Source of the DNA: Dehalococcoidia bacterium
GTDB lineage: Bacteria; Chloroflexota; Dehalococcoidia; Tepidiformales; Tepidiformaceae
Length of the DNA stretch: 5,624 nt
Assembly (NCBI GenBank): GCA_009838385.1
Contig: VXRS01000039.1
Span: 3,413 to 9,036, forward strand
Reading direction: 5' to 3'
The notes beneath the pieces are model-generated. The model saw nothing but the letters and a program-made list of their open reading frames with translations, ran no database searches and had not been told where the DNA came from. Within the stretch, counting starts at the first letter, position 1; each line of letters begins with the position of its first letter. A program made the translations under genes and the position numbers. Shown piece after piece: positions 333 to 5,532 of this stretch.

Positions 333-938
333 ATGCCGAGAGTGAGTGAAGTCGGCGGCATGGAGGGGTTTGGCGGCGTCTACGGGCACCGCCCCGACCT
401 CTTCAAGGGGTTCATGTTCAACTACGGCGTGCTGTGGTCCCACAGCACCCTCGATCCCCTCCTCAAGGAGCTCATCAGGCTCTACTCGTCCAACACCAAC
501 GGATGCCGATACTGAATCCCCGCACGTACTGCTGCGGCGCAGCAGGAAGGCATGACGGAAGAGATGATCCAGCAGGCGCTGGACTTCCGGAACTCGGACC
601 TCCCCGAGCGCACGAAGGTCGCGCTTGAGCTGGCCGAGGACTTCATCCTCAACCACGCCAACAACGTCGATGACGCGTTCATGGACCGGCTGAAGGAGCA
701 CTTCACCGAAGACCAGATCGTCGAGCTGACGATCGGCATCGGGATCTGGGACTCCGTGCACAAGTTCAATAACGTGTTCGACGTTCCACCGCCCGTTGAG
801 GACGGCCTGTTCGTCCTCGAGCGTCTGGCCGACGCCCCCGAGGACATGCAGCATCTGATCACGCACCTCGACGGGAACGGCAATCCCATGGATCGCTGGG
901 AGCCGGCCGAGGCGGAAGCCGCGGGAGGCGCCTCCTAG
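333..938 (+). CDS. Selenocysteine-containing carboxymuconolactone decarboxylase/AhpD-like protein (TGA 513-515 = Sec61)
   Basis: Read through the TGA at 513-515, this is one 201-residue protein. The two halves are in the same frame with no other stop between them. Residues 40-75 (LDPLLKELIRL, then NGCRYU, IPARTAAAQQEG) follow the CMD/AhpD active-site pattern, in which helix Glu and CxxC spacing is conserved; here E46, C58 and U61. The TGA replaces the second Cys of CxxC. C58 is the only Cys in the whole protein, so a Cys-Sec pair is the only possible redox couple. The downstream half (DLPERTKVALELAEDF, then VELTIGIGIWDSVHKFNNVF) is typical of the second part of CMD-fold proteins. The family includes AhpD peroxidase-reducing partners and uncharacterised thiol oxidoreductases; CxxU suggests redox chemistry rather than ring decarboxylation. 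A SECIS-like hairpin follows the TGA. Ordinary TGA stops occur elsewhere in the window (4144-4146). Alternatives are a nonsense mutation or sequencing error; preserved downstream coding and the hairpin argue against them. Confidence 0.87.
529..545 (+). promoter_or_regulatory. Putative bacterial SECIS element (selenocysteine insertion hairpin)
   Basis: CTGCTGC (529-535) pairs perfectly with GCAGCAG (539-545) around a three-base loop GGC (536-538). The loop begins 20 nt after the TGA at 513-515. Known bacterial SECIS elements lie in the coding sequence just after the UGA, have a small apical loop with a G among its first bases, and sit roughly 16-37 nt from the UGA; this hairpin meets all three. 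Through the hairpin the frame reads TAAAQQ, so the RNA structure and an Ala-rich helix are encoded together. Below the stem, T527-A547 can pair after one mismatch. SelB binding is inferred, not shown. Confidence 0.75.
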
Positions 939-2501: not shown

Positions 2502-3233
2502 CTAGCCTTCGAAGAGGTACCCGCTTCCACGAACGGTGCGGATGCGCTCGGGATTGGCCGCATCGGGCTCAATCTTCTGGCGAAGCCAGCGCATATGAAC
2601 GTCCACCGTTCGCGCGTCACCATTGAAGTCGTGCTCCCAGACCGACTCGAGGATGTGCTCGCGGGAGAGCACCTGGCCGGGATTTCGCAACAAGAATAGC
2701 AAGAGCTCGAACTCCCGCGGCTTCAGACGCAGTAGCTCGCCGGCTCGGCGCACCTCACGGCGCACCGCGTTCACCTCGAGATCCCCCGACTCGACGACGT
2801 CTTCGTCGGGAGGCGCGCTCTGGCGGGTGGGGGCGCGACGGAGGAGGGCGCGGACGCGGGCGAGGAGCTCGCGCATGCCGAAGGGCTTAGGCAGGTAGTC
2901 GTCGGCGCCCGTGTCGAGTCCGGCGACGCGGTCGCCCTCCCCGCCAAGGGCGGTGACCATGATGATCGGCACCTGGGTGTCGCGGCGCAGGGCGCGGCAG
3001 ACGCCCATGCCGTCGACGCCGGGAAGCATCAGGTCGAGGACGATGACGTCGGGGTCGTGGTCGCGGGCCATGCGCAGGCCGTCGTCGCCACGGTCGGCGG
3101 TGAGCACTTCGTAGCCTTCGCGGCGAAGGTGGTGCGCCATCGAGAGGAGGAGGGCTTCCTCGTCCTCGACGACGAGCACGGTGGCCGTTGTGGCAGGCGC
3201 CGCAGTCATTCCGCTTTCAGACTCTTCCGACAT
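2502..3233 (-). CDS. OmpR/PhoB-family DNA-binding response regulator
   Basis: Two-domain transcription regulator of 243 residues. The receiver domain (about 18-133) has the acidic pocket E23/D24/E25, phosphoacceptor D67 in VIVLDLMLPGVDG, T94 and K116 in LPKPF. A linker of about 15 residues leads to a winged-helix DNA-binding domain (about 148-243) with LKPREFELLLFLLRNPG, the recognition-helix stretch RTVDVHMRWLRQKIE, and the closing wing TVRGSGYLF. It should be phosphorylated by the kinase just downstream. It is closest in style to PhoB/RegX3/PhoP regulators; the regulon is unknown. The start is uncertain: the ATG at 3233 gives MSEESESG as leader, while the ATG at 3209 (MTAAPATT) also leaves the receiver domain whole and has GGAAGAG about 12 nt upstream; neither has an ideal ribosome site. 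The gap from the phosphotransferase gene is 47 bp with no convincing promoter. Confidence 0.93.
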   Translation of the reverse strand: MSEESESGMTAAPATTATVLVVEDEEALLLSMAHHLRREGYEVLTADRGDDGLRMARDHDPDVIVLDLMLPGVDGMGVCRALRRDTQVPIIMVTALGGEGDRVAGLDTGADDYLPKPFGMRELLARVRALLRRAPTRQSAPPDEDVVESGDLEVNAVRREVRRAGELLRLKPREFELLLFLLRNPGQVLSREHILESVWEHDFNGDARTVDVHMRWLRQKIEPDAANPERIRTVRGSGYLFEG

Positions 3234-3280: not shown

Positions 3281-4141
3281 CTAGCTTCTCGTGCCGAGGC
3301 GACGCCGGGCGTGGGCGATGAGCTGCTCGACATCCTCCACCGGGTCGGGAATGTCGGCGTCGGGCGGGCTGATGGCGCGAACGATGGCGAGGTGTTCGAT
3401 GGCGCGCACGATGACCCAGCGCCACATCAGCGGGATGTCGACGGGCGCGACGAGCTGGTACCCCCGCAGGTAGACGAAGGCCGCCAGCGGCCGGAACAGC
3501 CGGGTGATGACGCGCATGGCGGGGCTCGGATCGAGCGGCTCTCCCAGCCTCAGCAGCGCCACGGAGCGGGCGACATCCGACTCCAGGGGTCCGGCCGCGC
3601 AGAAGCCCCAGTCGATGACGACGCGGCGCCCTCCCGGCTCCAGCAGGATGTTCCCGGGGTGGAAGTCGCTGTGGCAGAACCGGTCGCCGCCTTCCAGTTC
3701 GGCGAGCGTTTCTTCAGCGATGGCGGTCAGGTGCGGGGGAACCTCGACGTTCCCGATCCACTCGCGAACGCGCTCGTGCACCGTCGCCAGACCATCGGGG
3801 GCGGGGAGCGCGTTCAGTTTCGCGTGGATCTTGCCCGTCTCCCAGGCCTCTCGCGTCATGAACCAGGGCTTGCGGCCGACCAGGTCGAGCAGGTTCTCCC
3901 CGTTGATGCGCTCCATGACCGTGCCCTCGCGGCCGGCCACGTGCAGCGGCTCCCCGATTCGGGGGGCGGGAATGCCGCCCTCAATGGCGGCGGGGATGGC
4001 GATGCGCTCCGGCTCGACGTTGCGCTCGTGCCCTTCGCGGAAGAGGCGCAGGGCCTGGCCGTCCTCCCACGCGAATATCTCGGCTTCGTAGCCCTCGCCG
4101 AGCTTCTCGAGGGTTTCGAGGTCGATGTCCAGGCCGTCCAT
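3281..4141 (-). CDS. APH-family (aminoglycoside phosphotransferase-like) small-molecule kinase
   Basis: A 286-residue protein with the fold of aminoglycoside/choline/homoserine kinases. The C-lobe has the catalytic loop HSDFHPGNIL at 157-166 (D159 as base, N164 for metal) and the metal-binding IDWG at 176-179 (D177). The N-lobe has a Gly-rich strand (GEGYEAEIFAW, 15-25) and ALRLF at 30-34, where the usual ATP-binding Lys of beta3 appears to be Arg32, a substitution I recall in other family members. All expected motifs are present, so it is probably an active ATP-dependent kinase. The substrate cannot be deduced, and a resistance role should not be assumed, because most chromosomal members act on metabolites. 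The start at 4141 is chosen because it lies 2 nt after the CCA-enzyme TGA; the longer reading to 4288 only copies the overlapping gene in another frame. A GAGGA ribosome site lies 12 nt upstream. Tight coupling implies co-expression with the tRNA enzyme. Confidence 0.88.
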   Translation of the reverse strand: MDGLDIDLETLEKLGEGYEAEIFAWEDGQALRLFREGHERNVEPERIAIPAAIEGGIPAPRIGEPLHVAGREGTVMERINGENLLDLVGRKPWFMTREAWETGKIHAKLNALPAPDGLATVHERVREWIGNVEVPPHLTAIAEETLAELEGGDRFCHSDFHPGNILLEPGGRRVVIDWGFCAAGPLESDVARSVALLRLGEPLDPSPAMRVITRLFRPLAAFVYLRGYQLVAPVDIPLMWRWVIVRAIEHLAIVRAISPPDADIPDPVEDVEQLIAHARRRLGTRS

Positions 4142-4143
4142 CG

Positions 4144-5532
4144 TCAGGACCCGTCCTCGGTGTCGGCGAGAAGCGCCGCGGTGCCGCCCATGCGGCGAGC
4201 GATGCGGGCCGCTTCTTCCTTGTCGCCGGGAGCCAGCTCGCCGTCGAGCACGAGGGTACTGAGGCGCTCCTTGATGCGCGCGATCCACGGCCCCGGTTCG
4301 CGGTCCAGGAGAACCATCAGCTCGCGGCCGTCGAGGGGGCTCTCGGCACGGAGCATGGCCGCCTCCTCGGCCTCGACGCGCTCGCAGGCGGCCTCCAGGC
4401 GGTCGTGGTACTCGTTGTCGTCGTAGGCGTGGCTAGCGTTGTCGGCGCGCTTGAGCGCGAGGAGGTCGCGCCAGTGCCCATCGAGGCGGCGCATGAAGCG
4501 GCGCACCAGGCGCCCGTCGTCGGGGTCGGGGCGGTCCATGTGGCGCCGCACAAGCAGGGAGAGCAGGGCGCTTTCGCGCTTGCCCAGGCGCAGCCGCTCG
4601 GCGAGCGCGTCCGTCATCTCGGCGCCCACGATCTCGTGGCGGTAGAAACCCCACTCGCCGTTCTTCTTGACGTGCCTGACGGGGGGCTTGCCGAGGTCGT
4701 GCAGGAGCGCCGCCCAGCGGCGGAGCGACAGGCTCTCGGGGTCGGTGGCGATGGCTTCGACGGTCGCGGTCGTGTGGCCCCAGACATCGAACTTGTGGAA
4801 GCGGTTCTGGTCGCAGCCGGGCATTGGGGCGAGCTCGGGCAGGACGTGGGGAAGGGCGCCGATCTCGCGCAGCGTCTCCAGTCCCTCCGCGGGATGCTTG
4901 CCGCACAGCAGCCGGTCGATCTCGGCGGTCACGCGTTCCTGCGAGAGGGTCTCCAGTAGCTCGACGGTGGCGGCCATGGCCGCCTTCGTCTCCTCTTCGA
5001 TGGTGAATCCGAGCTGGCTGACGAAGCGCACGCCGCGGAGGATGCGGAGCGGGTCCTCGGCGAAGCGCGTTCGGGCATCGCCGGGCGCGCGGAGCAGGCG
5101 CCGTTCGATGTCGTCGCGCCCGGCGAAGGGGTCGCGCAGCTCGCCAGTGGCCGTGTTCCGGGCGATGGCGTTCACGGTGAAGTCGCGGCGGGCGAGGTCC
5201 TCGTCGATGGAGCTGCCGAAGGTGACGTCGGGCCAGCGGCTGCCGGCCGTGTAGCTGTCGCCACGGAAGGTCGTGATCTCGGCCATGCCCTCCTCGAGCA
5301 GCACACCCGTCGTGCCGAAGCGCTGCCCGATGGTGGCGACGGTCGCGCCCAGGGCGCGGCCGATCCGCTCGGTCTCGTCGGGGAGGGCGCTGGTCGCGTA
5401 GTCGGCATATTCGGCGTCGCCGCGGTCCCGAGGCACGCCTCGCAGCTCGTCGCGCACGAATCCTCCGGCCAGCCACAGCTCGTGTCCGGCCTCGGCGAAG
5501 GCGGCGATCAGGGCCTCGCGCGTCGGAGTCAT
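4144..5532 (-). CDS. cca: Class II CCA tRNA nucleotidyltransferase/poly(A) polymerase-type protein with HD domain
   Basis: 462 residues, the usual size for an HD-containing bacterial CCA enzyme, which builds or repairs the 3' CCA of tRNA in the cytoplasm from CTP and ATP. Motif A starts normally (LAGGFVRDELRG, 21-32). The strand TTFRGDSY follows, then RRDFTVNA (115-122) and the nucleotide-selecting EDPLR (159-163) with ILRGVRF. The HD domain has H253, HDLGKP (278-283) and YRHE (298-301). The odd point is the catalytic Asp motif. Instead of a compact DxDxAT it reads D39-A-E-Y-A-D44-Y-A-T47, with what looks like a 3-residue duplication (AEY-ADY, DNA 5398-5415). Whether CCA, A-only or no addition results is unknown. 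I chose the ATG at 5532 over a GTG at 5559 because a -10 box sits 6 nt before it, which suits a leaderless message. The gene ends with a conventional TGA. Confidence 0.9.
   Translation of the reverse strand: MTPTREALIAAFAEAGHELWLAGGFVRDELRGVPRDRGDAEYADYATSALPDETERIGRALGATVATIGQRFGTTGVLLEEGMAEITTFRGDSYTAGSRWPDVTFGSSIDEDLARRDFTVNAIARNTATGELRDPFAGRDDIERRLLRAPGDARTRFAEDPLRILRGVRFVSQLGFTIEEETKAAMAATVELLETLSQERVTAEIDRLLCGKHPAEGLETLREIGALPHVLPELAPMPGCDQNRFHKFDVWGHTTATVEAIATDPESLSLRRWAALLHDLGKPPVRHVKKNGEWGFYRHEIVGAEMTDALAERLRLGKRESALLSLLVRRHMDRPDPDDGRLVRRFMRRLDGHWRDLLALKRADNASHAYDDNEYHDRLEAACERVEAEEAAMLRAESPLDGRELMVLLDREPGPWIARIKERLSTLVLDGELAPGDKEEAARIARRMGGTAALLADTEDGS
5398..5415 (-). repeat. 9-bp imperfect tandem duplication in CCA catalytic motif
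   Basis: Two adjacent 9-bp units on the complement, GCCGAATAT and GCCGACTAC, differ at two positions and encode AEY then ADY. They fall between the two metal-binding carboxylates expected in class II nucleotidyltransferases. The reading frame is kept. Confidence 0.55.

Follow-up and report, generated by a model that had tools for sequence, protein, structure and literature searches.

A putative CxxU selenoprotein gene of the CMD/AhpD superfamily common to Chloroflexota and Gammaproteobacteria

Results

Organization of the locus

The window, that is, the whole stretch of 5,624 nucleotides of Dehalococcoidia DNA analyzed here, carries a gene of the CMD/AhpD family located between an opposite-strand SDR gene and a two-component system. 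The features discussed below are as follows.

3–239: SDR fragment
321–326, + strand: AAGGAG, probable ribosome-binding site, 6 nt 5' of the ATG
333–938, + strand: predicted whole selenoprotein gene of the CMD/AhpD family, 201 aa with UGA read as selenocysteine (Sec), TAG stop at 936–938
504–515, + strand: codons of the putative CxxU redox motif, C58-R-Y-U61, aligned to the CxxC of 2gmy and 2ijc
513–515, + strand: in-frame TGA, predicted to be decoded as Sec; TGA in 29/29 loci, Cys in homolog L079
525–527, + strand: codon of R65, an Arg that replaces the His found in 2gmy and 2ijc four residues past the second Cys
529–545, + strand: bacterial-type SECIS hairpin, stem 529–535/539–545, loop GGC at 536–538; recognized by pairing, covariation and codon shuffles
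552–938, + strand: C-terminal fragment of 128 aa, reported by gene callers in place of the whole protein
1119–2492, − strand: sensor kinase
2502–3233, − strand: OmpR-type regulator
3281–4141, − strand: APH-type kinase
4144–5532, − strand: CCA-adding tRNA nucleotidyltransferase-like protein

Between the ATG at 333 and the TAG, the frame is broken only by the TGA, which is codon 61, lies three residues past C58 and is followed by 140 sense codons. The sequence-only reading that drew attention to this gene had placed the TGA at the second Cys position of a CxxC motif, with 140 further sense codons up to the stop, and both coordinates and frame are as it claimed. It had also anticipated that gene calling would split the gene, and the standard ORF list indeed contains the 128-aa piece, with the upstream frame ending at 515. 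Purine-rich stretches of G and A precede the start in most relatives. Because another gene of the window (4144–5532) ends normally with TGA, the standard code applies here, and a changed genetic code was rejected on this ground; the three other same-strand genes that were checked end with TAG.

The order SDR gene, CMD/AhpD gene, two-component system is kept in those loci that match the window over its whole length. Chloroflexota loci, and some gammaproteobacterial ones, have an SDR gene upstream, but identity between the proteins of the two phyla is just 31–34%, and the SDR is therefore not taken as a conserved link. Neighbors are otherwise mixed (10 proteins from six gammaproteobacterial loci and one Chloroflexota locus, from a crude ORF calling that retains false antisense frames in GC-rich loci) and include Rieske oxygenase, amidohydrolase, FAD-binding, acyl-CoA dehydrogenase and CoA-transferase genes. 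At the loci looked at, we found no partner gene conserved across Chloroflexota and Gammaproteobacteria, and the earlier hint of undescribed partner genes was thus not borne out.

Conservation of the in-frame TGA across two phyla

Related loci were recovered from 31 species genomes, 10 of Chloroflexota (L001–L009 and L018) and 21 of Gammaproteobacteria, including clades such as Halieaceae and Pseudomonadales, which we take to belong to the latter. Three of them (L001, L002 and L005) match the whole window at 94–96% DNA identity, and L006 matches it as two segments with 94% and 91% identity. All 29 loci that cover codon 61 (10 from Chloroflexota and 19 from Gammaproteobacteria; L030 and L031 both start downstream of the codon and were omitted from the count) have TGA at this position, and in 12 of the 29 the first stop thereafter is another TGA. 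A full-length homolog with Cys at position 61 was found as well: L079, the closest further family member without a stop, has the motif CKMC with TGC at this codon and is 46% identical over 188 columns. In a quick tree of 135 family members, L079 is sister to the Sec member L080 with 94% SH-aLRT support, just below the starred level of 95. Thus, the two kinds of homolog by which the sequence-only reading had proposed to check its claim, with TGA and with Cys at this position, both exist. Among plasmids, 129 records contain a match, none of which covers 80% of the query, and all are below 60% identity.

Synonymous and nonsynonymous counts against eight relatives indicate purifying selection on either side of the TGA. 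In the comparison with L008, for example, there are 5 nonsynonymous and 17 synonymous changes before the TGA and 12 and 24, respectively, after it; against L009, the synonymous rate downstream of the TGA is saturated. These counts bear on the notion of a decayed gene or a sequencing or assembly error, under which the TGA would be either a genuine stop or a misread base and what follows it a remnant frame. A nonsense mutation would indeed look like an in-frame TGA, and standard gene calling ends the gene at exactly this codon. However, the TGA recurs in every covering locus, in separate records from two phyla, which refutes the idea for the family, nonsynonymous changes are few on both sides, and the hairpin described below co-varies. 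A pseudogene or sequencing error was accordingly rejected, and for the window itself we consider decay or error very improbable.

The gene in protein databases

Protein databases hold the family almost exclusively as its downstream part. Our set comprised 58 matches of a protein search and the best 120 of 222 matches of a profile search, the latter 105–128 aa long, together 147 distinct proteins. Every one of these 147 matches solely downstream of residue 61, and in 133 of them the match starts at residue 74, the ATG at 552. A search with residues 1–72, which covered exact 5-residue words in proteins of about 110–351 aa, returned no full-length member and no candidate sharing three words. Given that the 147 database proteins (from the 58 and the best 120 of 222) match only past residue 61 and that this N-terminal search gave no full-length member, annotation loses the active site.

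Taken at face value, the preponderance of starts at ATG 552 and the occurrence of the 127–128-aa form from several contigs would fit two separate genes, one for a 60-aa peptide and the other for a 128-aa protein. Yet the CMD domain match, which extends over residues 23–89, crosses the TGA, the downstream piece has neither redox residue, and the Cys homolog L079 is a single unbroken protein. Furthermore, L014 and L017 have TTA in place of the window's ATG 552, and RNA-level conservation is seen for the hairpin between the two pieces. We hence regard a pair of genes as highly unlikely and treat 333–938 as one gene.

A conserved hairpin downstream of the TGA

Bacterial SECIS elements are hairpins located just downstream of the UGA, with a G opening the apical loop. 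The SECIS-like hairpin that had been claimed to follow the TGA lies 13 nt beyond it: a 7-bp stem, starting at column 17 (the T of the TGA being column 1), closes a GGC loop with G in first position. On its own, the hairpin of the window is unremarkable (z −0.68, with 46 of 200 shuffles folding equally well), and Rfam yielded no family for the window at gathering scores and none for positions 480–620 at E up to 1, but across the family the hairpin is far beyond chance. In alignment A1, which comprises the window plus 29 loci and has 24 distinct rows, all 168 cells of the distinct sequences are paired, and three of the seven stem pairs change on both sides, i.e., co-vary, whereas sliding the partners by 1–3 columns as a control left 15.5–69.6% paired. 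None of 500 letter shuffles attained the observed covariation score, the count of paired cells or the count of cells with both partners changed, and 3 of 500 attained the count of stem pairs in which both partners change; one of the five covariation measures, further pair types, did not exceed the shuffles (97 of 500 reach it). A consensus fold recovers the same 7-bp stem.

Since the stem lies within coding sequence, synonymous codons were also shuffled, which preserves the protein (1,000 shuffles; L029, which has ambiguous bases, was left out of this test and of protein alignment A2). The full stem occurs in 24 of the 24 distinct sequences, compared with a mean of 0.42 and a maximum of 3 of 24 in the shuffles, and the 168 pairs compare with a maximum of 118. 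None of the co-varying pairs is silent for the protein on both sides. Ala67 (GCT or GCC) pairs with C as the first base of codon 71 and Ser67 (TCT) with A or G at that base (Lys or Glu); a silent change in codon 67 is paired with Gln70 to Arg in L012 and L015; and in L017 the uppermost stem pair is A-U, accompanied by Glu68. Fold-energy z scores against the codon shuffles range from +0.09 (L017) to −3.61 (L021), the signal being weak in close Chloroflexota (−0.80 for the window and −0.22 for L006) and absent in L017.

Selenocysteine machinery

In bacteria, SelA and SelD make Sec-tRNA(Sec), which SelB delivers to the ribosome at a UGA with a hairpin. The corresponding genes were scored over curated cut-offs in the 31 genomes carrying the related loci and in 14 control genomes. 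Among the former, selA is present in 31 of 31 (1/14 controls), selB in 30 of 31 (2/14) and selD in 30 of 31 (2/14). A tRNA-Sec passes the cut-off in 25 of 31, leaving 6 without, as well as in 5 of the 14 controls, so the tRNA-Sec model is not fully specific. All four components are found in the 10 Chloroflexota genomes (G001–G010), in nine of which (G001–G009) the best selB match spans only about positions 2–355 of 581. Sec incorporation itself, in the strain from which the window derives, we infer. Across 54 genomes of the class of G001, selA is present in 23 of the 27 with a TGA member listed vs 20 of the 27 with only non-TGA members, and G311, the genome of the Cys homolog L079, has selA and selB; in these genomes, the Sec state and the presence of the machinery do not clearly go together.

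The selD gene itself has an in-frame TGA in all 10 Chloroflexota genomes, where SelD is therefore probably a selenoprotein, and a selD copy with such a TGA is also present in two gammaproteobacterial genomes (G019 and G030).

Insertion of Trp at the UGA, another suppressor or a changed code would equally keep the frame open, as would any code in which TGA specifies an amino acid. Against such non-Sec readthrough, TGA stops another gene of the window and serves as the later stop in 12 of the 29 loci; the position is occupied by Cys in L079, 2gmy and 2ijc, and by Trp in none of the 135 family members read; and the SECIS hairpin as well as the sel genes in the genomes of relatives are those expected for Sec. 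We consider this explanation extremely improbable. Collectively, the conserved TGA, the Cys homolog and the hairpin make us highly confident that 333–938 is one intact selenoprotein gene of the CMD/AhpD superfamily.

Fold and predicted chemistry

The Pfam CMD model (PF02627) matches with 45.5 bits against a gathering cut-off of 23. Among NCBIfam models, TIGR00778 (AhpD core domain) is the sole match past its cut-off (38.6 vs 27.8 bits). The best-scoring one, NF053654 (YciW-related (seleno)protein), reaches 65 bits but not its cut-off of 310, and TIGR01926 (peroxidase-related enzyme) matches residues 17–138 with 40.2 bits, below its cut-off of 81.8. A profile search of the PDB returned 2gmy (Atu0492) at 57.7 bits, PA0269 at about 51–52 and the debrominase Bmp8 at 35.7. 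In agreement with this, a Foldseek search with a structure model of middling quality (mean pLDDT 71, built from the 29 sequences of alignment A2) placed 2o4d first (E 1.7e-5, TM 0.80 by target length) and also found Bmp8 (E 1.9e-3). The fold is thus shared with 2gmy and with PA0269 (2ijc, 2o4d and 7xw1), whose CxxC aligns with C58 and Sec61; at about 23–26% identity, these structures have Cys where the window has Sec.

The CxxC pair of AhpD is represented by CxxU, formed by C58 and U61. In AhpD, protons are relayed by a His located four residues past the second Cys. This His, which 2gmy and 2ijc possess, is lacking here, and Arg65 is invariant in all 29 rows of A2. With its low pKa, Sec might dispense with the His of AhpD. 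According to the mechanism that we propose, SelA and SelD would provide Sec-tRNA(Sec), and SelB would bring it to the UGA at 513–515 owing to the hairpin at 529–545. The product would be an all-helical AhpD-like fold with a C58/Sec61 redox pair, in which the selenolate of Sec61 may reduce a peroxide, a disulfide or another electrophile, and the Sec61–C58 selenenylsulfide that then forms would be reset by a cellular thiol system. The protein is most likely a thiol/selenol oxidoreductase with a CxxU pair, and peroxide or disulfide reduction appears a probable substrate class.

A selenoprotein with another role, namely a Sec-based reductive dehalogenase or a specialized CMD-fold enzyme comparable with Bmp8, is also conceivable. 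Bmp8 (6ohi and 6ohj) is a Cys enzyme, and its deposited title refers to a brominated pyrrole. It is one of the solved relatives, shares the fold and has an aligned CxxC, and Rieske oxygenase, amidohydrolase or FAD-binding genes adjoin the gene at some of the gammaproteobacterial loci inspected. Nevertheless, Bmp8 matches less well than 2gmy or PA0269, and the neighbors are mixed, with none found conserved across phyla, which leaves a dehalogenase or similar specialized enzyme very unlikely compared with the thiol/selenol oxidoreductase.

Paralogs and the wider family

Profile search of G001, the genome of L001, revealed five superfamily members (L001, L082, L088, L089 and L090), all of which contain TGA at the CxxU position. 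The class of G001 is presumably Dehalococcoidia, and of 393 genomes sampled from this class, 64 yield a profile match with E no higher than 1e-10. From 100 chosen stretches, we collected 105 further members; this is not a random sample, and near-duplicates were left out. TGA occupies position 61 in 58 of them, always together with Cys58, while 24 have Cys and the other 23 carry Glu, Val, Gly or Asp. The quick tree, many branches of which are weak, implies that the position switched among Sec, Cys and other states at least 9 times.

Four residues past position 61, Arg is found in 46 and Asn in 10 of the 58 Sec members, as opposed to Arg in 3 and Thr, His or Gly in 21 of the 24 Cys members. Over the tree of 135 members, the association of Sec61 with this Arg is not significant, as supported branches provide just 2 independent pairs; kinship explains much of the pattern, which is therefore suggestive only.

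Several CMD paralogs form tandem pairs, in which one member has CxxU and its neighbor replaces Sec by Glu or Asp (CEAE, CDTE or CAYD); such pairs occur at L091 (G009), L088 (G001), L130 (G007), L126 (G010) and L085 (G033). The Glu/Asp neighbor is perhaps a non-redox partner subunit. Another CxxU paralog, L090 (G001:C31:10971–11432), ends with TGA and is followed 12 nt on, in the same frame, by an ATG whose frame, judged by eye, is alpha/beta-hydrolase-like, the two making a possible two-gene operon. The hairpins of the paralogs are the best stems in range, taken without a control.

Discussion

Selenoproteins of the AhpD type are not new as a class. A paper of 2005 (PMC1088965) lists 27 AhpD-like and 4 CMD domain-containing sequences, both with CxxU, and one of 2008 (PMC2398784) lists 299 selenoproteins as AhpD-like 1 (COG2128) and 70 as AhpD-like 2 (PF02627). 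Since CxxU proteins of this kind have thus been in print since 2005, the class was already known, and the statement in the sequence-only reading that AhpD-like selenoproteins had been reported in marine metagenomes is borne out by both papers. The Sargasso Sea and GOS proteins described there are likewise of the AhpD/CMD type, with Sec second in CxxU, and are marine metagenomic; our comparison of the present family with AhpD-like 1 and 2 and with the CMD selenoproteins is one of their published descriptions. AhpD-like and CMD selenoproteins are listed again in two reviews (PMC9312934 and PMC13188914), in which the term Chloroflexi does not occur, nor does Chloroflexota in PMC13188914; the latter names MCB9421940.1 and MBW1767730.1 as accessions of AhpD-like and CMD-like selenoproteins. 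Among the titles and abstract openings of open-licence PMC literature, we found nothing on the family in Chloroflexota.

It is tempting to combine these observations into a broader scenario, in which the gene represents an undescribed Sec-only CxxUxxxR lineage, a branch of a Dehalococcoidia radiation of AhpD/CMD selenoproteins in which Sec rather than Cys is usual, and in which Sec would carry out chemistry that Cys enzymes do poorly, such as the reductive dehalogenation of brominated or chlorinated compounds. Compounds of this sort are common in sponges and sea water. As a joint proposition, however, this scenario is speculative and, in our judgment, improbable.

The present analysis nevertheless points to a well-supported selenoprotein family common to Chloroflexota and Gammaproteobacteria that is largely invisible in protein databases. 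One of its members, L017, belongs to a named strain, Candidatus Litorirhabdus singularis IMCC14734, which allows testing. Moreover, because several CxxU paralogs are found per genome, the results suggest that a sizeable share of the selenium used by these Chloroflexota goes into AhpD-type chemistry.
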